Below are positions 1-34,547 of a stretch of 36,397 nucleotides of DNA, one piece after another. The position numbers and the translations under genes are program-made. The stretch spans positions 1-36,397 of the IMG/VR virus record IMGVR_UViG_3300046656_000208. One strand, written 5' to 3'. A model generated the notes under the pieces. The model searched no databases and was not told where the DNA came from. It worked only from the letters and a program-made list of their open reading frames with translations. The stretch comes from a virus. Position 1 is the stretch's first letter, and each line of letters begins with the position of its first letter.

Positions 1-716
1 GGTTTCTGAACTGCTTCCTGCCGGGGGAAAGCATTCCCGCCCCTGATGGCGAGTTTGCCCGCCGTCAGCTGAATGACCTGCTGAGCGAGTGGTCGCAGCA
101 GAACTCGGCCATCCCGGTCATCGGCCGGGAGCGGTTTCTGCTCGTGGCTGGACAGGGCGGCCCGATGAATCCCTACACCATCGGGATCGGTGGGGACTTC
201 AACACCGAGCGGCCCAGTAATCAGAACTCCCTCGTCAGCGCCAATCTGATTCTGACAGCCAGCAATCCCGAGGTGCGGGTGCCACTGGGGATTTACACCG
301 ATCAGGCCTACGACGCGAACCAGCTACCCGACCTGAGTAACAGCCAGCCGACGGGCCTCTACTACAACCCGACCTACCAGCATGATCTGGGCTCCATCTT
401 CCTGTGGCCGGTGCCCAATACCTCGGTGAACAACATCGAGTTGTTCCTGCAGAAGTCGATTGTCCAGTTTCCCGATCTGAGCACCGAGATGTTCGTGCCC
501 GAGGGCTATCCGAAGGCGCTGAAGTATGCACTGGCGGACCTGCTGCAGACGCCCTATGGGCGGACGCTGAGCCCTGCGGCGAACCGGATTCGGGTGGCCA
601 GTGTGGCGGCGATGCGGCGCAGCAATGACAAGCTGAGTGACCTCGGCAACGACGCCTACGTGTTCACGCAGGGACGGCGCACCACCTACAATATCCGGAC
701 GGGGAGCGGAGGCTAG
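1..716 (+). CDS. P22 gp4-like tail accessory factor (5' truncated)
   Basis: The frame is open from base 3, so the start lies before the window; 237 residues remain. The N-terminal part (RRQLNDLLSEWSQQ, then VIGRERFLLVAGQGG and YTIGIGGDFNTERP) matches the conserved pattern of the P22 gp4 / head-completion family: a helical segment with a Leu-Trp repeat, then a Pro/Gly stretch ending in a 'GxGGDFNTxRP' motif. In P22, gp4 binds the portal ring after DNA packaging and makes the platform for gp10. The next gene is gp10-like and overlaps it by 1 nt, which supports the call. A GTG at 144 is an internal codon, not the start, because conserved sequence continues upstream of it. Confidence 0.85.
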   Translation, partial: FLNCFLPGESIPAPDGEFARRQLNDLLSEWSQQNSAIPVIGRERFLLVAGQGGPMNPYTIGIGGDFNTERPSNQNSLVSANLILTASNPEVRVPLGIYTDQAYDANQLPDLSNSQPTGLYYNPTYQHDLGSIFLWPVPNTSVNNIELFLQKSIVQFPDLSTEMFVPEGYPKALKYALADLLQTPYGRTLSPAANRIRVASVAAMRRSNDKLSDLGNDAYVFTQGRRTTYNIRTGSGG

Positions 717-2203
717 TGCCTCCGTTTGAGGCCTTCAACGGCGGCTTCTATGAGACCCGGTCCTCCACGTTTTCCGTGGATACCGCCGTCAATGTCTACA
801 AAGAAACGCGGCAGGTCGAAGGCTCACCCAAGACCACCACGCTCTACGGCACGCCCGGTCTGAAGCTGTTCGCGTCCGTCTTTGGGGGTGGCTGCCGGGG
901 CATGTTCACACAGGACGGCCGCACGTGGGCGGTCATCGGGTCCGTACTCTATGAACTGAATACCCTGTTGACCACGTGGGTGGCGCTGGGGGATGTCGGG
1001 ACGGACGGGCAGCCGGTCTCCTTCAGCAGCAACGGCATCAGTAGCAACTCCGTCGGCACCGGGAGCGGCGGGAACCAACTGGGCGTGGTGAGCGCAGGCG
1101 GACTCTATGTCCTGCATCTGGTCACGGGCGTACTCACAGCGGTCGTGCTGCCCTTTACCGGCCCGGTCATGCTGGCCTTTCTGGATAGCTACACCCTCGC
1201 CAATGAGGCGAACTCGCAGGTGGTCTGGTTCAGCTATCAGGAGGATATGACCCAGTGGGACGGGATCGATAACTTCATCCGGTTCGGCACATCCGACACC
1301 ATTGTGGGGATTGCGGTGAGCCGGGATCGGATCTGGGCCTTTGGGAGTAAGACCACCACGCTGTTCTATGACAGTGGCGACACCGACACGCCGTTTCTGC
1401 CCTATCCCGGCAGCGCCACGCAGGTGGGACTCGTCTCCCCGTGGGCGCTGACACTCTACGCGGATACCTTCTTCTGGCTGGCGACCACGGAGCACGGGCT
1501 ACGGCGCATTGTGATGGCAACCGACCCGCTGGCGCAGCCGATTTCGATTCCGCCCATTGAGCAGCACATTGCGGACTGCCCCTCACTCGCGGATGTCTAC
1601 GCGATGGCCTACGAGCAGGAAGGCCACGTGTTCATCATCTTCGTCCTGCCCAGCAGCCCGGACCCGACCGATGCCTTTGTCTACGATGCGACCGAGAAGG
1701 CGTGGCACACCCGCGCAGGCTGGGACAGCATCACCGGGCAGTATGTCCGCTGGCGGGCGAAGGGGAGCACCACGACCAACGGGCTGGTGCTGGTGGGGGA
1801 CTACAGCAGCGGGGACACCTACACGCTGGACCTGAACACCTACACCGACAACGGGGCCATCATTCGGCGGGAGCGGACCGCGCCCTATCTCTCGGCTGAG
1901 GCCCAGTGGCTGTTTCTGGAGCAGGTGGAACTGGGGACGCAGCCGGGGATCGGGCTGGTGCTCGGGCAGGGCAGCGACCCGATGGCGACACTGGAGATCA
2001 GCCGGGACAGCGCCCATACGTTCGTCAATGCCGGGAACGCGCCGCTGGGACGCATTGGCGCGTATACCGACCGCGCCGTGTGGCGGCGGCTGGGCCGGGC
2101 ACGGGCCGACCGGCTGGTGATTCGGGTGACGCAGACCGACCCGGTGGCCTGTGTCTGGACCGGCGCGTGGCTGCGGACGACCAACGGGAGTGGGGAGTTG
2201 TGA
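716..2203 (+). CDS. P22 gp10-like packaged DNA stabilisation (tail hub) protein
   Basis: 495 residues, close to P22 gp10 (about 470). It starts at GTG overlapping the stop of the gp4-like gene by one base. The N-terminus (PFEAFNGGFYETRS, then VDTAVNVYKET and TLYGTPGLKLF) is the typical gp10 opening: 'G.Y..RS...' followed by the 'YGTPGL' motif. The rest is beta-rich with repeated Trp/Tyr segments, as expected for a propeller-like hub. In P22-like virions gp10 sits under gp4 and closes the portal channel, and binds tailspike and needle. Family call is by recognised motif and gene order; no alignment was run. Confidence 0.85.
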   Translation: MPPFEAFNGGFYETRSSTFSVDTAVNVYKETRQVEGSPKTTTLYGTPGLKLFASVFGGGCRGMFTQDGRTWAVIGSVLYELNTLLTTWVALGDVGTDGQPVSFSSNGISSNSVGTGSGGNQLGVVSAGGLYVLHLVTGVLTAVVLPFTGPVMLAFLDSYTLANEANSQVVWFSYQEDMTQWDGIDNFIRFGTSDTIVGIAVSRDRIWAFGSKTTTLFYDSGDTDTPFLPYPGSATQVGLVSPWALTLYADTFFWLATTEHGLRRIVMATDPLAQPISIPPIEQHIADCPSLADVYAMAYEQEGHVFIIFVLPSSPDPTDAFVYDATEKAWHTRAGWDSITGQYVRWRAKGSTTTNGLVLVGDYSSGDTYTLDLNTYTDNGAIIRRERTAPYLSAEAQWLFLEQVELGTQPGIGLVLGQGSDPMATLEISRDSAHTFVNAGNAPLGRIGAYTDRAVWRRLGRARADRLVIRVTQTDPVACVWTGAWLRTTNGSGEL

Positions 2204-2204
2204 C

Positions 2205-3470
2205 ATGCCCACCCTGATGGAGGACCCGACCCCGGCGTGGCTGAAGCCCGAGAATGCCTCGGTGCTGGACCCCGCATGGGTGAAGCTGCTGCGGGCCATC
2301 GCGAACGCCAACCCCCTCCCGAAGGCGCTACAGGACCGCCTGCCGAACCCCAACCCGGCCGCGATGGCGCTGCACCCGCAGGACCAGATTCTGGCCCTGA
2401 TGGGGGCCGACGTGCCCAGCGGCGGGCCGAGGATTGAAGGCTGGCACGCCTCTCCGCATGATTTCGACAAGTTTGATCTGTCGAAGGTCGGGACGGGGGA
2501 AGGGGCGCAGGCCTTCGGGCATGGGGCCTATATCGCCCAGCGGCACGGCACGGCCAAATACTACTGGGAGAACTTTGCAGGCCGTGGGGGCGATTTCAGT
2601 CTGTTCAACGTGGAAGGCGGCGGGAAAGTCCCCGCGTGGCTCAGGGACACGATCCAGACGGACCCGACCGTGGGCGCCCGCACCGTGGACAACCTGCTGG
2701 CGGAGTTTCAGGACCGGCTGCCCCGGCTGAAGGCGCTGGCGTTGCATTCGGAGGAGGCCCGGCAGAGTCACCAGACCAACCAGATCGAACCGCTGGAGGC
2801 GCTGATCGAGGGCCTGAAGAACGTGAAAGCCGGGAAGGCCATCAAGCCCCCGGCCCGCATGTATCAGGTCGCCATCCACGCCGATCCCGAACACCTACTG
2901 GACTGGGACAAGCCGCTGAGTCAGCAGAGCCCGCACGTCCAAGAGGCGCTGAAGCCCTTCGACCTGCACAAGACCGATGCGCCGGAGTGGCAGGCCAGTT
3001 ACGAGCGAGACATTCAGCAGAAGGCCAAGACCCCGGCCGATGCGGCCAAAGCTCTGACCATTGTGCGTGAGGCCATCAGCGGCGCCACCCCTCTGACGGA
3101 TGCATCGTGGCAACAGCTGCATGACCTCGTGCCGGGGGCGAATCATCATGCCATCGGGGAAATTGTGGAGGCCGCGAAGTTTGATCCCGTGGGGAAAGAC
3201 ATCTATCGCAAGCTGCACCCGGATGAGGATGTCAGTCCTGAGTTTGCGGCGAAGCTAGCGTCCAAGACGCTGGGGGACCGTGGGATTCCCGGCATTAAGT
3301 ATCTGGACCAGATATCCAGACGGCAGGGCGAGGGCAGCTACAACTACGTGGTCTTTGACGAGAACAAGCTGGAGATTCTGAAGAAGCTGGGGCTGCTGCT
3401 GCCCGCTATCGGCGCGGGGTCCCAGACTTACGGATCGATGTATGACCAGTCACAGGCGGTGGGCAAATAA
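2205..3470 (+). CDS. ADP-ribosyltransferase-like (ART-PolyVal type) virion-cluster protein, copy 1
   Basis: 421 residues; ATG at 2205 follows GGAG in 'gggagttg' and lies 1 nt after the previous stop. Residues 1-75 form a leader shared with the next two genes (PTPAWLKPENASVLD... NPNPAAM). Then comes a PARP/ART-like pattern: GWHASPHDFDKF with His81, GTGEGAQAFGHGAYIA with Tyr109, and near the C-terminus GIPGIKYLDQ and YNYVVFDENKLEIL (about 379-392). The central part carries YQVAIHADPEHLLDWDKP, common in phage proteins of the ART-PolyVal type. Such enzymes transfer ADP-ribose from NAD+ to host targets; activity here is inferred. Position after the gp10-like gene, where P22 has needle and ejection genes, suggests it may be carried in the virion and injected. 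Confidence 0.7.
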   Translation: MPTLMEDPTPAWLKPENASVLDPAWVKLLRAIANANPLPKALQDRLPNPNPAAMALHPQDQILALMGADVPSGGPRIEGWHASPHDFDKFDLSKVGTGEGAQAFGHGAYIAQRHGTAKYYWENFAGRGGDFSLFNVEGGGKVPAWLRDTIQTDPTVGARTVDNLLAEFQDRLPRLKALALHSEEARQSHQTNQIEPLEALIEGLKNVKAGKAIKPPARMYQVAIHADPEHLLDWDKPLSQQSPHVQEALKPFDLHKTDAPEWQASYERDIQQKAKTPADAAKALTIVREAISGATPLTDASWQQLHDLVPGANHHAIGEIVEAAKFDPVGKDIYRKLHPDEDVSPEFAAKLASKTLGDRGIPGIKYLDQISRRQGEGSYNYVVFDENKLEILKKLGLLLPAIGAGSQTYGSMYDQSQAVGK

Positions 3471-4720
3471 TGCCGACCGCGATGTACGATCCCACGCCGG
3501 ACTGGTTGAAGCCCGAGAACGCCTCGGTCCTCGATTCGCAGCTGGTCAAGCTGCTGCGCGCCATCGTGAACGCCAACCCGTGGCCGAAGCCCCTGCAGGG
3601 CGTCCTCCCGAACCCGAACCCCGCGGCGATGGCACTGGACCCGCAGTCGCAGGTCCTCGCCCTCATGGGTGCCGACGTGCCCAGCGGGGGACCACGGATT
3701 CAGGGCTACCACGGGTCCAAACATGACTTTGAGCGGTTCGATAGCAGCAAGATCGGGACGGGGCAGGGGGCTCAGAGCTACGGGCATGGGATGTACATCG
3801 CAGAACACCCCGGCACGGCGGAGTCCTATCGCGCCGACCAAGCGGGACATCCTGAAATAAAGAATTTGAAGCTGGGTACCTTACAGGTGGGCCAGCATAA
3901 CGGATTCGACTACAGCCCGAAGGGCAATTCCCTCTATGAGAATATCCGGTCCTCCCTCGCGGAGGATCTGCTGGTCGATCAACGGGCTATGGTCGGCACC
4001 CCGCCTGACCAAGTGCAAGCCCACGTCCTGAAGGTGTTAGACGATAAGATACGGGACTACGCCACGGAATGGCCGGAGGGGGTGCCCGCGGCCCAGCGGT
4101 TGCGGGCGGATCTGGCTCGTCGGAATGCCGTGTCCCTCACGTTTGGGGAGCGTCCCGGCCATAGCTATCAGGTCGCTATTCACGCCGATCCCACGCAGTT
4201 TCTGGACTGGGATAAGCCCGTCAGCGAACAACCCCATGTGCAGGCGGCGCTGGCTCCGCACATCGACGCCCTCCGCAAGAACCTCACCGTGGTGCAGAGT
4301 GCCCACAATAAAAACAACTGGCTGATCAAAATCGGGGATCAGACGGTGGGGGCCTCCAATACGGAAGCCCAAGCATGGAAGAATGCGGAGGCGATGCTGG
4401 GGGATATCACCGACCCTGAATTTACGGGCCGGGACGCCTATCAGTTATTGTCTCGGATTCATGCCAAGCCGGGGGCCTTTCCGGAAATTGGCATCCATCA
4501 GCCCGCCGTGGCCTCACAGAAGCTGCGAGAGGCGGGGATTCCCGGCAACAAGTATCTAGATCAGGACTCCCGTGCGGTGGGCGCAGGCACCTCCAACTAT
4601 GTGGTGTTCCCCGGCAATGAAGGCCTGATTGACATTCTCCGCAAGTTTGGCCTGCTGCTCCCCGCCGCAGGGGCGGCGAACTACGGTGGCCTCTTTCAGC
4701 AGTCGCAGGAGGCGAAGTAG
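3470..4720 (+). CDS. ADP-ribosyltransferase-like virion-cluster protein, copy 2
   Basis: 416 residues, starting in a TAATG overlap with copy 1. The first 75 residues are nearly the same as copy 3 (MPTAMYDPTP, WLKPENASVLDSQLVK). The catalytic-type motifs are YHGSKHDFERF (His81), GTGQGAQSYGHGMYIAE (Tyr109) and NYVVFPGNEGLIDILRKFG at the C-terminus. The middle (about residues 125-225 and 250-330) is unlike the other copies, so the target-recognition or packing region has diverged while leader and core stayed the same. Ends with a Leu/Ala-rich tail (GLLLPAAGAANYGG) also seen in copy 3. Function inferred from family only. Confidence 0.7.
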   Translation: MPTAMYDPTPDWLKPENASVLDSQLVKLLRAIVNANPWPKPLQGVLPNPNPAAMALDPQSQVLALMGADVPSGGPRIQGYHGSKHDFERFDSSKIGTGQGAQSYGHGMYIAEHPGTAESYRADQAGHPEIKNLKLGTLQVGQHNGFDYSPKGNSLYENIRSSLAEDLLVDQRAMVGTPPDQVQAHVLKVLDDKIRDYATEWPEGVPAAQRLRADLARRNAVSLTFGERPGHSYQVAIHADPTQFLDWDKPVSEQPHVQAALAPHIDALRKNLTVVQSAHNKNNWLIKIGDQTVGASNTEAQAWKNAEAMLGDITDPEFTGRDAYQLLSRIHAKPGAFPEIGIHQPAVASQKLREAGIPGNKYLDQDSRAVGAGTSNYVVFPGNEGLIDILRKFGLLLPAAGAANYGGLFQQSQEAK

Positions 4721-6001
4721 ATGCCGACCGCGATGTACGACCCCACGCCCGAGTGGCTGAAGCCGGAGAACGCCTCCGTGCTGGATTCGCAGCTGGTGAA
4801 GGTACTCAGGGCGATTGTCAATGCCAACCCGTGGCCGAAGCCGTTGCAGGGCGTGCTGCCCAATCCCAACCCCGCCGCGATGGTGGCGGACCCGCAGTCG
4901 CAAGTGCTGGCCGTGATGGGGGCCGATGTCCCGAGTGGCGGACCCATCAAAGCCTTCCACGCTTCCCCGTATGACTTTGAGAAATTTGACAGCAGCAAGA
5001 TCGGGACGGGGCAGGGGGCGGCGACCTTCGGACACGGGCACTATTCCGCGCAGATGGAACCCACCGCCGAGTCCTATCTGTCCCTCGCCACGCCCGAGGT
5101 AAAGGTGGGCGGCACGCCGCTACCGATGCCGAAGTGGTCGCAAACGATGTCGCCCGAGGCGCGATTGATCCGGCGTATTGGGGACCATCGGATGATCAAT
5201 CGCACGGCGCCGGAGGCGGAGATTCTCGCGCAGGTCAAAGACGATCTGACCCATCAAGCGAAGGCCCGCTGGCGGGGCGACAACGATCAGGTGGTGACCG
5301 AGGCGAAGGAGCAGCTGCGGCTACTGGCCGAGTGGGAGCAGCAGGGTATCGCCTCCCAGCACGGCCACATGTATGAAATTGCTATCAACGCCGACCCCGC
5401 GCACCTCCTCGACTGGGACAAGCCGCTAAGCGAGCAGAGCGAACATGTGCAAGCGGCGGTCAACAAGATCCGAAACCGGCAACGGTCTGAGTTTGGCCTG
5501 ACGTGGAAAGAGACGCCCATTCAGGCGCTGGACTTGGGCGACTATGCCACGGAACACTGGGGGCGGCAGTACCGATCTGAGGTGATTGATCCGAAAACGA
5601 AGAAAGCCATCGCCACCTTTCAGGGCGGGAGCCCTGAAGAAGTCACGGCCAAGATCGCCCAATGGCGGATGGCGCGCGAAGATGAATTTCTGGCCCAGAC
5701 GGGCAAAGAGTTTTATCACGCGCGGGCGGATGCGGCGGATATTAAAAGCCGGGGCTCGATGACCTATGTGGATCGCAAGAAGGCCGCCAGCACGCAGCTG
5801 CGAGAGGCGGGCGTGCCCGGCATTAAGTATCTGGATCAGGAGTCCCGGCAGGTGGGGCAGGGCACGTATAACTACGTCATCACCGACGATAAGCTGATCG
5901 ACATCCTGCGGAAATTCGGGATGCTGCTGCCTGCGGTGGGCGCGGCCAACTACGGCGCACTGGCGAAGCAGATCGTGCCACCCGGCGAGGAGGCGAAGTA
6001 A
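4721..6001 (+). CDS. ADP-ribosyltransferase-like virion-cluster protein, copy 3
   Basis: 426 residues; ATG immediately follows the TAG of copy 2, and its TAA overlaps the next ATG. The shared leader is at 1-75, then AFHASPYDFEKF (His80), GTGQGAATFGHGHYSAQ (Tyr108), a divergent charged middle, YEIAINADPAHLLDWDKPL, VPGIKYLDQESRQVG and YNYVITDDKLIDILRKFG. Here the motif after the Tyr lacks the usual hydrophobic 'YFA' (HYSA), so activity could differ from the other copies. Near identity to copy 2 at the DNA level over the first roughly 220 bp indicates a recent tandem duplication or gene conversion. Confidence 0.7.
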   Translation: MPTAMYDPTPEWLKPENASVLDSQLVKVLRAIVNANPWPKPLQGVLPNPNPAAMVADPQSQVLAVMGADVPSGGPIKAFHASPYDFEKFDSSKIGTGQGAATFGHGHYSAQMEPTAESYLSLATPEVKVGGTPLPMPKWSQTMSPEARLIRRIGDHRMINRTAPEAEILAQVKDDLTHQAKARWRGDNDQVVTEAKEQLRLLAEWEQQGIASQHGHMYEIAINADPAHLLDWDKPLSEQSEHVQAAVNKIRNRQRSEFGLTWKETPIQALDLGDYATEHWGRQYRSEVIDPKTKKAIATFQGGSPEEVTAKIAQWRMAREDEFLAQTGKEFYHARADAADIKSRGSMTYVDRKKAASTQLREAGVPGIKYLDQESRQVGQGTYNYVITDDKLIDILRKFGMLLPAVGAANYGALAKQIVPPGEEAK

Positions 6002-7437
6002 TGGCCGTCGTGGCCGGACTCCCGCTGCCGCCTTCCAACGTGCCGATGGTGGACCCGCGGACGGGCGACCTGAACCTGCAATGGAAGAATTACTATCTCG
6101 CGCTGCAGGGCTTTCTGGCCGCGATTCAGACGGCCCCCATTGACGCGAAGTACTGGACCTCGACCTTCAATGGCCAGCTGACCGATGAGACCAACCTCGG
6201 TCTCCTGCCCTCGGGCTACCTGAAGATCACGACGGCTGTGGCGACGGCCACGCCCAGCACCGTGACGACGATTCCGGCCAGCGATATCAGCCCGCCGCCA
6301 CCGCCCAATAACGCCACCTATTGGACCTCCACGGCTGAGCCTGCGCTCAGTGCTGAGACCAATCTGGGTGCCCAGCCGTCTGGCTATCTGAAGCAGACCA
6401 CCAGCGGAGGATTTGCGAATCCGTTCACGGTGCCCACGATTCCCGCGACGGACATCAGCCCGGTCCCGGCCCCCATAGATGCCTCCTACTGGACGGCCAC
6501 GGCAGAACCTGCCCTGAGTGCCGAGACGAATCTGGGTGCCCTCCCGACCGGCTATCTGAAGCAGACCACCGTGGCGGGCGTGGCCACGCCGAGCACCACG
6601 CCCACGATCCCGGCCTCTGATATTAGCCCGCCCTCATCCCCCAATAGTGCCAGCTATTGGACCTCCACCGACGAGCCGGGTCTGAGTAACGAGACGAATC
6701 TGGGAGCACTGGCAACGGGATATCTGAAGCAGACGACCGTGGCCGGGGTGGCGACCCCGAGCACCGTGACGACGATCCCGGCCGGTGATATCAGCCCGCC
6801 ACCCCCCACCAACGCGGCCACCTTTTGGACCTCCACGTCAGAACCGGGTCTCAGTAACGAGACCAATATGGGGGCGCTGACGACGGGCTGGCTCTGGCAG
6901 AACGTCGTGGGCGGCGTCTCCACACCCCAAGCGTTCCCCGGCTCGGCACTCACCGGGGTCAACGATGTCAACGTCACGATTACGCTGACGGGCCTCCCGT
7001 CGGAGGCGCTGCTGCAGGCCGTGACCGCGACGATGGGCTGGGCGGGCACACTCAGTACGGCCCGCGGCGGCACGGGGGCCAATAACAGCGGGCAGGTCTA
7101 CACACCGACGCTGTTGAATGAGATCAATGTGACCAGTTCGACGCCCTTTCAGTTTCATTTCTTCCGGGTCGGCAATGTGGTGATGGTCTCGGGCGTCATT
7201 GCGGTGACCCCGACGGCGGCCAATACCAACACCGAGCTGGGGATTGAACTGCCGATTCCCTCGGCGTTTACGGGATTCGATCAATGCACGGGCTCGGGCG
7301 CGGCGTCGATTGTCTTTGGCTATTCGGTGACGATCACGGCCAATGGCACCACGCACCGCGCCCAAATGGCGTGGAACCCCGGCGCCACCGTTGCCTCCAC
7401 GGGGATCACGCTGACCTTCATGTATCTGGTGGTCTGA
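6001..7437 (+). CDS. Repeat-containing tail needle or fibre protein
   Basis: 478 residues. The N-terminal 45 residues (PPSNVPMVDPRTGDLNLQW, then a helix KNYYLALQGFLAAIQ) look like the virion-anchoring segment of many phage tail fibres. Five copies of a 56-residue repeat follow (YWTST.EP.LS.ETNLG, GYLKQTT, TIPASDISPPPPP), first residues at 51, 107, 163, 219 and 275. Then comes the motif TARGGTGANNSG, a common fibre hinge, and a beta-rich C-terminal domain of about 110 residues. Its place after gp10 is that of the P22 tail needle (gp26), so it may plug the hub or extend as a fibre. Short anchor, repeated shaft and compact head fit such a rod. Confidence 0.65.
   Translation: MAVVAGLPLPPSNVPMVDPRTGDLNLQWKNYYLALQGFLAAIQTAPIDAKYWTSTFNGQLTDETNLGLLPSGYLKITTAVATATPSTVTTIPASDISPPPPPNNATYWTSTAEPALSAETNLGAQPSGYLKQTTSGGFANPFTVPTIPATDISPVPAPIDASYWTATAEPALSAETNLGALPTGYLKQTTVAGVATPSTTPTIPASDISPPSSPNSASYWTSTDEPGLSNETNLGALATGYLKQTTVAGVATPSTVTTIPAGDISPPPPTNAATFWTSTSEPGLSNETNMGALTTGWLWQNVVGGVSTPQAFPGSALTGVNDVNVTITLTGLPSEALLQAVTATMGWAGTLSTARGGTGANNSGQVYTPTLLNEINVTSSTPFQFHFFRVGNVVMVSGVIAVTPTAANTNTELGIELPIPSAFTGFDQCTGSGAASIVFGYSVTITANGTTHRAQMAWNPGATVASTGITLTFMYLVV
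6151..6990 (+). repeat. Five in-frame 168-bp tandem repeats in the tail needle/fibre gene
   Basis: The repeat unit is exactly 56 codons. It begins at the YW/FW dipeptide (6151, 6319, 6487, 6655, 6823). Units share the ETNLG, GYLKQTT and TIPA.DISP segments, with a Pro-rich linker; the fifth copy decays after GWLWQN. Constant period with drifted sequence suggests a repeated structural module whose copy number sets shaft length. Confidence 0.9.
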
Positions 7438-8321
7438 TGGCATACACCTACACCGTGCAGTATGACGCACTGGGCCGGGCCTACATGGACCAGCCGGGGC
7501 CACGGACCTATATCTCGCCAGTGGCGTTTGGGAAGGACGCCCCCACGGACACCACCAGCATCTTCCGTCATGCGCCGCGCTTTAATCCCAAGACGGGGGA
7601 CTGGGAAACGCCGATGGACTGGGGCAACATCGCCAACATCGGCGCGGCCACGGGCCTGACACTGGGCGCGGCCAATGCGGGCATGTTTGGCCACACCGCG
7701 GCGGGCTTCCTCGGAGGTGGACACGCGGCGGTGGGTCCGACCGCCTCGGCGCTGGATACGGTGGGCTATGGTACGGGCGCGGCCTACGGCGGCGCAGGGG
7801 CCGAACTCGGCTTCGGCGCGGGCAGTGGGGTGACGGGTGCGGCGTCTGGAGGAAGTCAGTACATTGCAGACGCGGTGAGGCGAACGGCGGAACAGGCGGC
7901 AGGGAAAGGCACAGGTATGGCGCTCACACCCCTGACAGAGTTATTGGCGAAGTACGGCTTTCAAGCGGGCACCCAACTCGGGGGTGCCCTCATTCAGAGC
8001 AAAGCCCAGATGGATGCTGCCCGTATTCAGCAGGAATACAACGATAAGGCCCTCGCGGCGGCGCTGGAGGAACAGGCCTATGAGCGCAAGCGGGCCGAGG
8101 AACAGACCGCCTACGACCGGCTACACGGTGAGGAGAACACGGCCTATACCCGGCAGCGGGCGGCGGAACTCCTCGGCTACAACAAAGAGCAGTTTGGGAA
8201 CTACCTGTCCAATCTCTCCCCCTATCGGCAGGCCGGGACCTCGGCGTTGTCCCGGCTGCAAGCGGCGCTGGCGGGCAGTCCGTGGCAACCCAATAACGGC
8301 GTCATGAGGAGTTTCGGCTAA
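7437..8321 (+). CDS. Putative ejection (internal virion) protein, Gly/Ala-rich with coiled coil
   Basis: 294 residues from the ATG that overlaps the previous stop (TGATG); an upstream extension of the frame runs inside the fibre gene and is ignored. After an ordinary N-terminus (MAYTYTVQYDALGRAYMDQP), residues about 65-140 are very rich in Gly, Ala and Thr, like membrane-active segments of P22 gp7/gp20-type ejection proteins. Residues about 185-270 form a charged helical region (QQEYNDKALAAALEEQAYER, RLHGEENTAYTRQR). Gene order after the needle matches the P22 ejection-protein block. Family assignment is by context and composition, not by a clear motif. Confidence 0.5.
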   Translation: MAYTYTVQYDALGRAYMDQPGPRTYISPVAFGKDAPTDTTSIFRHAPRFNPKTGDWETPMDWGNIANIGAATGLTLGAANAGMFGHTAAGFLGGGHAAVGPTASALDTVGYGTGAAYGGAGAELGFGAGSGVTGAASGGSQYIADAVRRTAEQAAGKGTGMALTPLTELLAKYGFQAGTQLGGALIQSKAQMDAARIQQEYNDKALAAALEEQAYERKRAEEQTAYDRLHGEENTAYTRQRAAELLGYNKEQFGNYLSNLSPYRQAGTSALSRLQAALAGSPWQPNNGVMRSFG

Positions 8322-9529
8322 TGGCCATTGTCAAAGACCCGACCACCGGCGTCTATTATTCGACGGACGAGCGTGACCCTCCGTTTGATCCGAGAACTGG
8401 TCAAGTGCTGGGGGCACCCAACACGCCGGAGTTTGACAACGGCGGGACGGGGCCGTATCCCAATATTCAGCCCTCAACCGGGACGACCGGGACGACCACG
8501 ACCACGCCACCGAAGGGCGAAGATTTTGGGGCGTTTGTCACGGGGCTTGAGAACCAATACAACGTCCCGCATACGCAAAATGATCGGGCGTCCGATCTCG
8601 CGCGGCTGCAGGAAATTGAGGCGGGCGTCGCGCGGTTCCGGGCGCTGCAAGCCGATCCCAATACCGATTGGGAGAAGGAATCCAAGATCGGCGGGATCGC
8701 GTTTCCCAGCGAGTTGGAAGCCCACAAGCGGGCGCTTGCCGCCCAGTACGAGCAGCGCGGGAAAAACACCGATGGCCCCGACGATGGCACGAGCAGCAGC
8801 GGGTACGTGCCGCCGAATACGAGTGGTGGTGGGGGTGGTGGCGGGGGTGGGGGTGGTACCACCTCGGGCAACTACGCGATGTCCTTTGGAGGACCGCCCG
8901 CGCCCTTCAGCGAAACCTACAACACATTGGCGCGGCCCGACTACTTACAGGGGGAATACAAAGCCCCGGTCCGTCCCGACTACTTGCAGGGTCCGTATAC
9001 CCCACCCGTCTGGACGGATAAGTTTGTCGCGCCGTCGGTGGCCGATCTGCAGGCCGATCCCGGCTATCAGGCCCGGATGGATGCGGCGCAGCGGGGGTTT
9101 GAACGCTCGGCCGCCGCGAAGGGCTCGGTCCTCTCAGGTGGGTTCGTCGCCCGCACGCTCCCCCGCGAGTTGCAGACACAGGCCTCCAATGAATACGCCA
9201 ACGTCTACAACCGCGCCTACGATACCTACGTCGGTCGGTACGGCGAGTTTAAGGATATGGCCAACAATCTGGGCAATGCCCGAACGGTGAATGAGAATGC
9301 CTATCAGGGCGATGTCACGAATGCCTACAACACCCGGAACGTCAACGAGAATGCCTACGGTACCGATGTCACCAACAACCTGAACCGCTATAACAAGCTG
9401 TATCAGGCCTATCAGGACCTCATCAGCAACACCCGGAACGCTGAGAATGACTGGTGGGGGCGGCAGACGGACATTGCGAAGTATGGGCTGGATGCCTCGA
9501 TTGCCGGGCGGCCCTCGCAGCTGGTGTAA
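8321..9529 (+). CDS. Putative DNA-transfer/ejection protein
   Basis: 402 residues with ATG overlapping the upstream TAA. A Thr/Pro-rich N-terminal half ends in a run of about 11 glycines (codons at about 8823-8860). The C-terminal half has the phage motif ADPGYQARMDAAQRGFERSA, AKGSVLSGGF and ASNEYANVYNRAYDTYVGRY, found in many podovirus internal virion or DNA-transfer proteins ('DPGY...ERSAAARGxLxSGG...NEYxNVYNRA'). Repeated NENAYxxDVTN segments (about residues 325-350) suggest a helical repeat. Likely role: part of the machinery that carries DNA across the envelope. The motif is recognised; the function is inferred. Confidence 0.6.
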   Translation: MAIVKDPTTGVYYSTDERDPPFDPRTGQVLGAPNTPEFDNGGTGPYPNIQPSTGTTGTTTTTPPKGEDFGAFVTGLENQYNVPHTQNDRASDLARLQEIEAGVARFRALQADPNTDWEKESKIGGIAFPSELEAHKRALAAQYEQRGKNTDGPDDGTSSSGYVPPNTSGGGGGGGGGGGTTSGNYAMSFGGPPAPFSETYNTLARPDYLQGEYKAPVRPDYLQGPYTPPVWTDKFVAPSVADLQADPGYQARMDAAQRGFERSAAAKGSVLSGGFVARTLPRELQTQASNEYANVYNRAYDTYVGRYGEFKDMANNLGNARTVNENAYQGDVTNAYNTRNVNENAYGTDVTNNLNRYNKLYQAYQDLISNTRNAENDWWGRQTDIAKYGLDASIAGRPSQLV

Positions 9530-28429: not shown

Positions 28430-28614
28430 CACTCGCCACACTCGTGACCGTCGTGCTGGTGCTCGTGATTCTGGGCGTCGTGCTCTACCTGATCGAAACC
28501 TACATCCCGATGGACCCCCCGATCAAAGTCGTGATCCGGGTCGTGATCGTGATTGCCCTGTGTTTGTATTTGCTCAACCTGCTCGGGCTGTGGAGCGGAC
28601 TCGCGGTGCGCTGA
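28426..28614 (+). CDS. Thivi_2564-type small membrane protein
   Basis: 62 residues, ATGA overlap. Two helices: LVTVVLVLVILGVVLYLIE and VVIRVVIVIALCLYLLNLLG around YIPMDPPIKV. This 'yIPMd..ik.ii' centre is typical of a small bacterial and phage membrane protein type. Next to terL, it could be a holin or an envelope modifier. ATG of terL overlaps its stop. Confidence 0.65.
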   Translation: MTLATLVTVVLVLVILGVVLYLIETYIPMDPPIKVVIRVVIVIALCLYLLNLLGLWSGLAVR

Positions 28615-30122
28615 TGCCCGTGGCCCCGTCCGCCGCGGCCTACGAGACGCTGCTGCATGAGGCGGTGGCGGCGTACTACGCCAACCCGCTGGGGTTCGTG
28701 CACGCGATGTATCCGTGGCAGGAAGCCGGGACGGCGCTCGAACACGAGCCCGGGCCGGATGACTGGCAGCGGGACTTTCTGCGCTGGGTCGGGCAGGAAG
28801 TGAAAGCGCGGAAGTTTCAGGGCGTGGAGGCCGTGCCGGTGATTCGCGGCGCCGTCAGCAAAGGCCACGGGGTCGGCGGCAGTGCGCTGGCGGCGTGGCT
28901 GGTGGACTGGATTATGTCCACGCGGCCGCACTGTCAGGGCACCATCACGGCGAACACCATCACGCAGCTGCAGACCAAGACATGGGCGGCGGTGCAGCGG
29001 TGGACGCAGCTGTGCCGGACGGCGCACTGGTTTGAAATCAACGCCGACCGGATGTATCGGAAGGGCTTCCGGGCGTCGTGGTTCTGTGCGCCGCAGAGCA
29101 GCAAAGAGGAGAACTCCGAATCGTTCGCGGGACAGCACGCGAAGAACTCCACCAGCTTCTACCTGAATGACGAAGATGCGGGCGTCCCCGAAGTCATTCA
29201 CAAAGTGGAGGAGGGCGGGCTGACCGACGGGGAGCCGATGCAGTTCCTCTTTGGCAACTGCACGCGGTCCAACGGCAGCTTCTATCAGGCGTGCTTCGGG
29301 AGTCTGCGGCACCGCTATCACGTCGTGGTGGTGGACAGCCGCACGTCGCGCTTCACCAATAAGCAGCAGATTGCGGAGTGGGCGCAGGACTACGGCGAGG
29401 ACTCGGACTTCTTCCGGGTCCGGGTGTTGGGCTTGCCCCCCAATGCCTCCGACGCGCAGTTCATCGACCAGCAGCGGGTGAGTGCGGCGCAGACGCGCAG
29501 CGTGACGGTGCTGCCGGATGAACCCCTCATTGCGGGCTGTGATCTGGCGTGGGGGGGCTCGGATTTCAACGTGGTGCGGTTCCGGCGCGGCCGGGATGCC
29601 CGGAGCATTCCGCCGATTCGCATTCCCGGGGAACTGACGCGGGACCCCAGCGTGCTGACGAACCGGCTGGCGGATGTGCTGACGACCACCTATGCCGGGC
29701 ACCCGGTGCGGATGCTGTTCCTCGATTCGGCGGGCATTGCGGGCGCCATCGGGACGCGGCTGCGGGAACTCGGGCACCGGAACGTGCTGGAGGTGAACTT
29801 CGGGTCGGACAGTCCGAACCCCAAGCGGCGGTATATGCGGGACCATATGTGGAGCGAACTGAAGGATTGGCTGCTGACCGGCGCGATTGACACGGCGCCG
29901 CGGCTGGAGAGTGACCTGCTGGGGCCGGGGCTGCGGCCGGACCGGCAGCAACGGATCTGGCTCGAAAGCAAAGAGGACATGAAGAAGCGCGGCATTGACA
30001 GTCCCGATGATGCCGACGCGCTGGCGCTGACGTTCGCGCAGACGGTGAAGGCGATCAAACCCGCGATCAAACGTGGCATACTGCCGCCCGTGCACAGCGT
30101 GGAAATGTCGTGGGGAGTCTAG
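28614..30122 (+). CDS. terL: Terminase large subunit
   Basis: 502 residues from ATG 28614. Motifs: adenine-site PDDWQRDFLRWV (about 48-59); a changed Walker A, AVSKGHGVGGSALAAW, with Lys83 at its front and Gly89 where the usual Lys stands; Walker B FYLNDED with Asp186-Glu187; coupling motif FLFGNCTRSNGSFY (about 211-224); nuclease domain with Asp310 in AGCDLAWGGSDFN, FLDSAGIAGAIG and DDADALALTF. It packages DNA into proheads through the portal. The Walker A resembles lambda gpA, where the active Lys also comes at the front. Confidence 0.9.
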   Translation: MPVAPSAAAYETLLHEAVAAYYANPLGFVHAMYPWQEAGTALEHEPGPDDWQRDFLRWVGQEVKARKFQGVEAVPVIRGAVSKGHGVGGSALAAWLVDWIMSTRPHCQGTITANTITQLQTKTWAAVQRWTQLCRTAHWFEINADRMYRKGFRASWFCAPQSSKEENSESFAGQHAKNSTSFYLNDEDAGVPEVIHKVEEGGLTDGEPMQFLFGNCTRSNGSFYQACFGSLRHRYHVVVVDSRTSRFTNKQQIAEWAQDYGEDSDFFRVRVLGLPPNASDAQFIDQQRVSAAQTRSVTVLPDEPLIAGCDLAWGGSDFNVVRFRRGRDARSIPPIRIPGELTRDPSVLTNRLADVLTTTYAGHPVRMLFLDSAGIAGAIGTRLRELGHRNVLEVNFGSDSPNPKRRYMRDHMWSELKDWLLTGAIDTAPRLESDLLGPGLRPDRQQRIWLESKEDMKKRGIDSPDDADALALTFAQTVKAIKPAIKRGILPPVHSVEMSWGV

Positions 30123-31973: not shown

Positions 31974-34547
31974 ATGCCGCGCTACGCGCTGGATGCCGAT
32001 GACTTCCTCAAGACCGCCCGCGAGCGGTTCAAGCTGGGCAACGAGGCCGAGCAGCCGCAGTCGCTGCGGGAGCAGGAGGACATCGGGTTTGAGGATGGGG
32101 ACCAGTGGCCCGTGGACGTGAAGCGGGCGCGGGCGGGGCAGCAGCCCGGCAGCGGGCAACCGGCCATCCCCGCCCGTCCCACGCTGGTCATCAACAAAGT
32201 GCGGCGCAGCGTCCAGCAGGTGCTGAATCAGGAGCGGGAGTCTGACATCGGGATTGAGATTGTGCCCGCCGATGATTTTGGCGACCTCGGCATCACGCCG
32301 GATGACACGGAAATCACGTTACGCGAAGGGCTGGTGCGGCGCATTCAGCGGGAGTCCCAAGCCGCGGATGCCCGGTCGTGGGCCTTCAAGCGGGCGGTGA
32401 TTGCGGGCCGCGGGTACTACCTCGTGATGACCCGGTATCTGCCGGGGCAGACGTGGGATCAGGAAATCTATATCCACCGGATCTACAACCAAGCCGGGGT
32501 CGTGCTGGACCCCAGCCACGAGCAGCCCGACGGGTCCGATGCTGACTGGGGCTTTATCGGGACGTGGGTGCCGTGGGACCGCATTGCCGCCGAGTATCCG
32601 ACGCTGGCGAACGGAAAGCCCTCGCCCTTCGGGCAGTATGGCGAGGATGACTTTATCAGCATGGCGGAGGAGTATCCCGACTGGTATCGGCAGTCCTATA
32701 CGCTGCAGGACCACGACGGCAAGACGAGCACCATCCAGCAGGTGGCCGTGCGGGTGACCGATTACTGGTACACCGACCGGACGCCGCGCAGTCTCGCGCT
32801 GCTGCCCGATGGCCGCAGTGTCTGGGCGGAGGACGTGCCCGAGGACGTGGAGGCCGTCAGCCGCCGCACCGTGGTGGAGAAGCAGATCAAGTGGTGCAAG
32901 ATCGTGGGCGGCACGGCGAAGGTGGACGAGACCGACTGGCTGGGGTCGGACATGCCCATCATCAAAGTGCTCGGGGAGGAGATTCTCCCCTACGACGAGC
33001 AGCGGCGGGCCGAGGGGATGGTGCGGCAGGCGCGGTCGTCCCAGATGGGCCTCAACTACATGGTCAGCAAGCAGGTGGAGATGGTGGGCCTGACGCCCAT
33101 TCCGCCGCTGATGGTGGACCCGGTGGCGATTGAGGGCTTTGAGACCGACTACGAACTGATGAACGTCCGCACCTTCGGGAGCCTGAAGTATCGGACCTAT
33201 GACGATGAGGGCCGGGAACTGCGGCCCCCGATGCGGCCTCCGGTGAGTGACCTGAATGCCGGGGTGGCGCAGAGCATCGGCTTGTTTGATCAGGCGGTGA
33301 AGGACACCACCAACGTGAGTGACCCGGCGCTGGGGCAGACCGATCCCAGCGTCAAGAGTGCCCGGCACGCGCAGTATCTGATTCAAGAGTCCCGGATGGG
33401 CACGTCGAACTACATGGACAACCTGATCCGGTCGATTCGCTATGAGGGGCAGATTCTGAACGGGCTGCTCTATCCCATCTATGGCGCGAAGCCGGGTCGG
33501 CTGGTGCGGGTGCTGACGGGCGAGGGCGAGGGCGAACTGATGCGGGTGGACAGCGCCCAGCCGCCGCAGGGGATGGGACCGCAGGGGATGCCGGGACCGG
33601 GACCGGGAGTATCGGGATTTCCGTCGGGATTATCGGGATTTCCGTCGGGATTATCGGGATTATCGGGACCGGGACCCGTCCCGGGACCGCCGCCGATGGG
33701 GATGCCGGGACCTGCGGGGCGGCCGGGACTGCCACCGGGACCGATGGGGATGCCACCGGGACCGCTGGGGCCGCCCCCGGTCTCTCCGCAGGTGCAGGCG
33801 GTGAAGCGGGCGAAGCTGACGAAGGACGCCCACTTCAACGTGCTGGTGAAGGTCAGCAAGTCGGTCACGAATCGGCGCGACCAGTTTGTGCGGATGTTTG
33901 GGGATATTCTCGGGGCCGACCCGATGCAGATGGCGGTCGGCGGCGATCTGTTCTACAAGAACATGGACATTCCCGAGGCCAAGCAGCTGGCGAAGCGGCA
34001 GCGGGTCATGCTCGCGCCGCCCGTGCAGAAGTTTTTGGAGGCCGAGGAGCAGGGGCAGAACTTCGATCCCGTCAGTGCGGCGAAGATTGCCCAGCTGGAG
34101 CAGCAGATTCAGCACGCCGAAGCGGCGATGCGGGAACTGCACACCGTGGCGGAAGGCAAAGTGCTGGAGCATCAAGCGACCGTGCAAACCGAGACCGTGC
34201 GGCAGCAGGGCGAAGGCGAGCGCAAGCAGATGGAAATGACCCGCGATCTGGAACTCCAGCGCATGAAGGATGCGACCGCCATCGCCGTGGCGAAGATCAA
34301 TCTGCTGGGCAAAGGCGTGCTGGCGGATAAGGCCTCCGAGGATGAGGCGATGGCCCTCGGACTGGAGCACGCCCACGAGCAGCAGCAGGCGATGTTGGAG
34401 CGGCAGCACGCCCTGAACCTCTCGCAGTCCCAGCAGGCCGCCGACCAACAGCTGGCGCAGACCCCCGCGCCCCCCGAAGCGGCAGAGACCACCGAACCCG
34501 TGGGCGAGGCGCCCGAACCCGTGGAATCCCCAACCCCCGCACCGTAA
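31974..34547 (+). CDS. P22-like portal protein with collagen-like insert
   Basis: 857 residues (P22 portal about 725). N-terminal EQEDIGFEDGDQWP, RPTLVINKVRRSVQQVLNQE, then FKRAVIAGRGYYLVMTRY, VVLDPSHEQPDGSDADWGF and the crown/stem part VSDPALGQTDPSVKSARHAQ are typical of P22-type portals. Residues about 529-602 are a Gly/Pro-rich insert. The C-terminal 240 residues are a long charged coiled coil (AKIAQLEQQIQHAEAAMREL, GEGERKQMEMTRDLELQ), comparable to the P22 portal barrel inside the capsid, with a Pro/Glu-rich end. A dodecameric ring forms the DNA channel. Confidence 0.85.
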   Translation: MPRYALDADDFLKTARERFKLGNEAEQPQSLREQEDIGFEDGDQWPVDVKRARAGQQPGSGQPAIPARPTLVINKVRRSVQQVLNQERESDIGIEIVPADDFGDLGITPDDTEITLREGLVRRIQRESQAADARSWAFKRAVIAGRGYYLVMTRYLPGQTWDQEIYIHRIYNQAGVVLDPSHEQPDGSDADWGFIGTWVPWDRIAAEYPTLANGKPSPFGQYGEDDFISMAEEYPDWYRQSYTLQDHDGKTSTIQQVAVRVTDYWYTDRTPRSLALLPDGRSVWAEDVPEDVEAVSRRTVVEKQIKWCKIVGGTAKVDETDWLGSDMPIIKVLGEEILPYDEQRRAEGMVRQARSSQMGLNYMVSKQVEMVGLTPIPPLMVDPVAIEGFETDYELMNVRTFGSLKYRTYDDEGRELRPPMRPPVSDLNAGVAQSIGLFDQAVKDTTNVSDPALGQTDPSVKSARHAQYLIQESRMGTSNYMDNLIRSIRYEGQILNGLLYPIYGAKPGRLVRVLTGEGEGELMRVDSAQPPQGMGPQGMPGPGPGVSGFPSGLSGFPSGLSGLSGPGPVPGPPPMGMPGPAGRPGLPPGPMGMPPGPLGPPPVSPQVQAVKRAKLTKDAHFNVLVKVSKSVTNRRDQFVRMFGDILGADPMQMAVGGDLFYKNMDIPEAKQLAKRQRVMLAPPVQKFLEAEEQGQNFDPVSAAKIAQLEQQIQHAEAAMRELHTVAEGKVLEHQATVQTETVRQQGEGERKQMEMTRDLELQRMKDATAIAVAKINLLGKGVLADKASEDEAMALGLEHAHEQQQAMLERQHALNLSQSQQAADQQLAQTPAPPEAAETTEPVGEAPEPVESPTPAP
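33611..33670 (+). repeat. 21-bp tandem repeat in the portal Gly/Pro-rich insert
   Basis: Two perfect 21-bp units (33611-33631, 33632-33652) encode SGFPSGL repeats and are followed by a partial unit. They sit in the middle of a wider stretch (33555-33780) of GPP/GMPG-like codons. Confidence 0.8.

Follow-up and report, generated by a model that had tools for sequence, protein, structure and literature searches.

Cassette exchange at two slots in a three-gene array of leader-bearing ADP-ribosyltransferase-like proteins beside phage virion genes

The virus record IMGVR_UViG_3300046656_000208 of IMG/VR was analysed over positions 1 to 36,397 (the window, 36,397 nucleotides). One locus in it raises the question why a short-tailed phage keeps three adjacent genes for ADP-ribosyltransferase (ART)-like proteins that begin alike and differ in their middles. 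A first-pass annotation, made from the sequence alone, had described these genes as consecutive, with junctions of one or zero nucleotides. The open reading frame (ORF) coordinates confirmed three adjacent genes on the + strand, termed c1, c2 and c3. The ATG of c1 (2205..3470, 421 aa; phrog_873, 3e-6) stands at 2205 and its stop codon ends at 3470, where the ATG of c2 (3470..4720, 416 aa) overlaps it by 1 nt (TAATG). The c2 stop ends at 4720 and the c3 ATG follows at 4721 (4721..6001, 426 aa; phrog_873, 2.6e-7), a junction of 0 nt. The c3 stop ends at 6001, which is also the start of the downstream gene (1-nt junction). AGGAGG-type sites were read from the sequence before the next start at the ends of c2 and c3. 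The three proteins align, each with a leader and a predicted ART fold, and have H81, Y109 and N380 in common.

The most informative feature of these proteins, missed at first reading, is a pair of insert cassettes that are exchanged between phages. The protein family is common: a core-alignment scan of viral contigs returned at least 572 relatives, from which 80 loci were kept; motif and Pfam counts refer to 40 full-length members. Two variable inserts interrupt the ART core of family members, each at a fixed position. Insert 1 (68-128 aa) follows GHGxYxA and insert 2 (45-132 aa) follows LDWDKPLSxQ, and both are mainly helical in the AlphaFold2 (AF2) model of c1. In c1, core A with the strand of H81 and then GHGxY109 lies at 2430..2537, insert 1 at 2538..2861, the core B anchor YQVAIHADPxxLLDWDKPLSQQ at 2862..2927, insert 2 at 2928..3281 and core C, GIPGIKYLDQxSR...N380YVVFD, at 3282..3392. 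The inserts of c2 occupy 3803..4165 and 4232..4534, those of c3 5051..5371 and 5438..5809 (all on the + strand). The middles of the copies had been called divergent, and they share 14-24% identity. Nonsynonymous divergence (dN, Nei-Gojobori) between copies is about 1 or more in the inserts and 0.2-0.4 in the core segments.

An all-against-all comparison of the inserts yielded 67 related pairs, of which 45 were related in insert 1 only, 16 in insert 2 only and six in both. All six pairs sharing both inserts turned out to be 100% identical duplicate contigs. For seven strong pairs the shared insert reached z = 25-114 over shuffles, and the other insert -1 to 2.9. The exchange was also visible at the DNA level. 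The 7.6 kb ending at the core B anchor have 98.4% nucleotide identity between loci L016 and L081; unrelated inserts 2 follow, and afterwards the two match again. The same arrangement was observed between L006 and the window. Here near-identical DNA, including an insert 1 with 99% amino acid identity to that of c1, breaks near window position 2919, an unrelated insert 2 stands in the place of that of c1, and the match resumes. In both pairs, DNA identity before the break near the LDWDKP codons was 94-98%. A second and independent tandem ART pair on L038 (2-1210 and 1326-2555) has only four anchor stretches in common, of 50-121 nt and 93-97% identity, and the inserts that separate them are unrelated. 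Insert 2 of the first L038 copy holds a stray partial core C anchor (GSKYYDQM) that an exchange of cassettes may have left behind.

Single cassettes also recur in different surroundings. Insert 1 of c2 was found again in L004 and L011 (64-73% identity), L108, L111 and a 3416-aa polyvalent protein in L112 (45-52% over the cassette core for L111 and L112). In the core tree c1, c2, c3 and L006 group together (96/86), and L004 and L011 are placed elsewhere, despite their c2-like insert 1. For c3, insert 1 shares 37% identity with that of L022, and insert 2 shares 39% over 62 aa with that of L011. By these comparisons, the inserts at the two slots inside the ART domain are exchanged as complete cassettes, one slot independently of the other. 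Such two-slot exchange together with a leader-bearing array was not found described in the literature examined and seems to be new.

The array itself is present with all three genes on contig L002; on contig L003 it comprises c1, c2 and the first part of c3. A metagenome assembly artefact, with collapsed or chimeric repeats, is very improbable. It is true that the contigs are metagenomic and that c2 of L003 has a 24-nt in-frame deletion, but L002 and L003 come from other samples, copies that differ at a synonymous divergence (dS) of about 1 cannot be collapsed, and all frames are open and tightly joined. A recent DNA duplication was likewise rejected because of this dS. In L006, otherwise a close relative of the window phage, a single ART gene occupies the same locus, and ART copy number thus changes quickly. 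The array seems to be new, with three copies here and one in a near-identical phage. Multi-ART arrays are rare, at about 2-3 of about 80 loci (three copies in the window lineage, two in L038). Two candidates were not counted as tandem arrays of this kind: in L059 a frame break seems to have split a single gene, and the paired ARTs of L061 are different ones.

Each copy begins with a leader of 75 aa (c1 2205..2429, c2 3470..3694, c3 4721..4945; all +) with the motif P-x-W-x-x-P-E-N-A-S-V-[LF]-D ... P-Q-x-Q. A common leader of this length had been noted before, and over residues 1-75 amino acid identity was 81% for c1/c2, 76% for c1/c3 and 93% for c2/c3. Synonymous divergence of the leader between copies was 0.9-1.3; for c2/c3, dS was 1.31 and dN 0.04 (Nei-Gojobori), a dN/dS of about 0.03. 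This combination of high dS and high amino acid identity therefore reflects an old duplication kept by selection at the protein level, and not a chance match or a fresh DNA repeat. The leader is the most constrained part of this old duplication, under the strongest purifying selection.

Related leaders, with the motif P-x-N-A-S-V-[FL]-D ... D-P-Q-x-Q, were observed at the ART N-termini of L022, L053, L059, L039, L004, L016 and L095. A search for the leader on other proteins had been proposed at first reading: it is carried by the ARTs of other phages, so it is not private to this one, and as the N-terminus of a non-ART protein it was not found at the relative loci, in a DNA pattern scan of the whole collection or in a single-leader scan. 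The remaining PENASVLD matches were internal to unrelated proteins, mostly one methyltransferase-like protein. Neither the other predicted ejection proteins of the window phage nor other ORFs of the same loci carry the leader. The first-pass annotation had taken it for a virion-loading or ejection signal. As a general signal of this kind it was rejected, since it is absent from other ORFs of the same loci. A loading role remains plausible, because purifying selection is strongest on the leader and ART proteins are the only ones seen to carry it. An element for docking or loading that is specific to ARTs would show this pattern.

The assignment to the ARTs was then examined by sequence and by structure. 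Against Pfam ART-PolyVal (PF18760), with a curated gathering cutoff of 31.2 bits, c1 gave no match, c2 24.5 bits (5e-5) and c3 17 bits (0.011). Among the relatives 34 of 40 matched this family at E<=0.01 (best 5.9e-9), and 36 of 40 family members matched phrog_873. The Pfam check proposed at first reading thus succeeded for the relatives and not for the copies themselves. A family hidden Markov model (HMM) scored 9.9 bits against the ART of the N4-like virion RNA polymerase (vRNAP) protein of Roseovarius Plymouth podovirus 1, with a maximum of 4.4 in 30 shuffles; this is the prototype polyvalent ART (PMC5512222). Phmmer and profile searches of PDB sequences gave no match, and the NCBIfam search gave no ART family. 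The AF2 models of c1 and c2, calculated from an input alignment without row L007, had a predicted local distance difference test (pLDDT) score of 76-77 and core strands in the same order. In the c1 model H81 lies in strand E77-83 and Y109 in E108-111, the first two core strands, and N380 lies in a late strand in both models. Foldseek searches of BFVD returned 25 viral models with E<1e-3, down to 1e-15, several annotated as ART-PolyVal. Among PDB structures 6kyf, which is AcrIF11 (PMC12421852), was the best meaningful match for c1 (TMt 0.57), and the top four matches of c2 were all tankyrase-2. The split beta-sheet ART fold was recovered in these moderate-confidence models, in line with the first prediction. 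The ART-PolyVal-like assignment of c1-c3 holds by homology and structure, not by their own Pfam score.

The H...Y...NY-V pattern pointed out at first reading proved to be a firm family feature, with H81, Y109 and N380 invariant in 40 of 40 relatives. A His in strand 1 and a Tyr in strand 2 correspond to the H-Y signature of ART-PolyVal / Tox-ART-HYD2. That signature also has an Asp in strand 5, and here either N380, within the motif-3 strand, or the Asp after it (D385) may be the third catalytic residue. D385 is present in 33 of 40 relatives; c1 reads NYVVF-D and c3 NYVIT-D, and c2 has Pro-Gly-Asn-Glu instead. In c2 (NYVVFPGNE) and L087 (NYVMFPGTE) a two-residue insertion takes the place of the usual Asp, and L045 and L049 behave likewise. 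Membership in the T4 Alt family was rejected, as there is no R-S-E active site and the H-Y-N core is invariant. Could the proteins be structural parts or plugs of the virion that use a degenerate ART fold and have little transferase activity, or none? An Asn in place of the PARP-type Glu, the loss of the adjacent Asp in c2 and some relatives, and a leader more constrained than the core would suit this. The strict invariance of H81, Y109 and N380, however, is what is expected of an NAD site. Polyvalent ARTs of the active type are described as having H-Y-D triads (PMC5512222), and AcrIF11 is active with an H-F-H-D set (PMC12421852). We therefore regard a degenerate fold as unlikely.

Two further features were seen in family members. 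In L004 and L081 a possible third variable slot lies between SR and NFVVFD, with an GNWFIKGSMTPYPT...A-rich insert before motif 3 that occurs in some members only. Many stand-alone ARTs carry a Gly/Ala-rich hydrophobic C-terminal tail, LRKYGxxGLLxGG..., after the last ART strand (alignment A3). This tail seems to be absent from ARTs within polyvalent proteins and could be a virion or membrane contact.

The placement of the array in a virion gene cluster was confirmed. It lies directly after the gene of the head closure protein Hc3, which is P22 gp10-like (716..2203, +; phrog_578, 4e-81; Pfam Phage_stabilise, 1e-4), and before a repeat-protein gene. Three copies at the P22 needle position had been called unusual: the array is rare, but the position is approximate, between the Hc3 and repeat-protein genes. 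The repeat-protein gene covers 6001-7437 in the window, 3276-4880 in L006 and 6393-8165 in L002 (478, 534 and 590 aa). Its units of about 55 aa read YWTSTxEPxLSxETNLGALxTGYLKQTT...TIPxxDISPxP, and its length differs among close relatives. Further along the window are a predicted DNA-ejection protein (8321..9529, +; phrog_598, 1e-4), the terminase (28560-30122) and the portal protein (31974..34547, +; phrog_156, 3e-67). A typical relative has a single ART gene of about 400 aa adjoining portal, terminase, scaffold or head-tail genes, the last including a head-tail adaptor. The relatives in L008, L009, L051 and L112 are polyvalent-sized proteins. A further stand-alone protein of this ART family is encoded on L089, a contig of a Bdellovibrionaceae metagenome-assembled genome (MAG) that may derive from a prophage or phage. 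Neither a megablast comparison of the window with phage records nor a search of a plasmid collection gave a match.

Phage ARTs are often encoded beside head genes and probably packaged (PMC9503650), and a virion-linked phage ART is an already known kind. Late-made ARTs might also stay unpackaged and act in the producing cell, in superinfection exclusion, late remodelling or protection of packaging components. The position of c1-c3 in the late cluster would suit this, and protection of the packaging apparatus has been named as an alternative (PMC9503650). However, polyvalent proteins that are presumed to enter the particle, the Roseovarius Plymouth podovirus 1 vRNAP among them (PMC5512222), contain homologous domains, and docking would be a fitting role for a conserved leader confined to ARTs. 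We consider action in the producing cell improbable.

Comparison with known systems places c1-c3 closest to the ART-PolyVal / N4-like (Tox-ART-HYD2) polyvalent ARTs (PF18760; Iyer et al. 2017, PMC5512222; PMC9503650), with which they share core motif, fold, linkage to virion genes and predicted injection. They differ in being stand-alone, with one ART domain and a leader per gene and not the 2-15 domains of polyvalent proteins, in their dedicated leader, three adjacent genes and two independently exchanged inserts, and in an invariant Asn as third residue, with the Asp lost in c2. The head-cluster ART gp5 of Sulfitobacter phage phiGT1 (QLB38217.1, annotated as hypothetical) is a full-length homologue with 28% identity over 84% of c2, but occurs in one copy between portal and scaffold and has a different leader and inserts. 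AcrIF11 (PDB 6KYF) resembles c1 as best solved fold match, in a variable helical region inserted in the ART core and possibly in an Asp-based active site. In contrast to c1, it has about 137 and not 421 residues, lacks a leader, is expressed in the cell and targets Csy1/Cas8f. T4 packs the ART Alt in its virion and injects it to modify host proteins, and has three ARTs in all (Alt, ModA and ModB). The proposed strategy is the same and both phages have three ARTs, but the Alt family has an R-S-E triad where H-Y stands here, and the T4 paralogues differ in timing, with only Alt injected.

On balance, we lean towards c1-c3 being virion-delivered ART-fold effectors that are carried by their leader, released with the DNA and aimed by inserts that are exchanged as cassettes. 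The sequence itself shows the genes, the conserved leader, the ART-type core, the cassette exchange, the change in copy number and the virion-gene surroundings. The single-domain proteins would be expressed together with the late virion genes, would most probably enter the particle by means of the N-terminal leader that they share, and would reach the cell along with the DNA. The constant H-Y-N(D) core would then perform ADP-ribosyl transfer, and we infer that the helical inserts serve in target recognition, so that each copy may modify a different host molecule. Cassettes would swap through the short conserved anchors of core B (...LDWDKPLSxQ) and core C (GIPGIKYLD). A parallel is offered by AcrIF11, whose helical region is most variable and modelled at the target, and whose Asp-containing loop is conserved and needed (PMC12421852). 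This modelled contact also speaks against injected ARTs that all share one target and vary their cassettes to escape host inhibitors or immune sensors binding the ART. Whole-cassette replacement and hypervariability would also be expected if a host recognition factor imposed diversifying selection, but three divergent copies kept in one genome are better suited to different targets than to redundancy, and such an escape is not a likely explanation.

Several points weigh against aimed, virion-delivered effectors. All three copies stay below the Pfam gathering score for ART-PolyVal, and the PDB fold matches of c1 and c2 are not significant by E-value alone. The position that we take to be that of the PARP catalytic Glu appears to be Asn (N380) here, and c2 has Pro where the neighbouring motif-3 Asp stands, so activity, especially that of c2, is not assured. 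The weak insert-sharing pairs depend on BLAST sensitivity. The leader was seen on no other kind of virion protein, and it is conservation that argues for a loading role.

Injected ARTs are predicted in many phages, almost none with a known target or targeting rule. The natural pairs L016/L081 and L006/c1, with the same leader, core and insert 1 and a different insert 2, make the question of ART targets directly testable, and the leader, confined to ARTs, can be tested as a candidate virion-loading signal. More tentatively, at somewhat less than even chances, the family may be a modular scaffold, in which a fixed virion leader and ART core offer two sockets for cassettes from a shared pool that also supplies giant polyvalent proteins; recombination would re-aim injected ARTs, and tandem copies would widen the range of targets in some phages. 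The block-swapped inserts suggest a way of re-aiming an injected weapon, and the cassette pattern would add recombination-driven change of effector specificity to the arms races between phages and their hosts.

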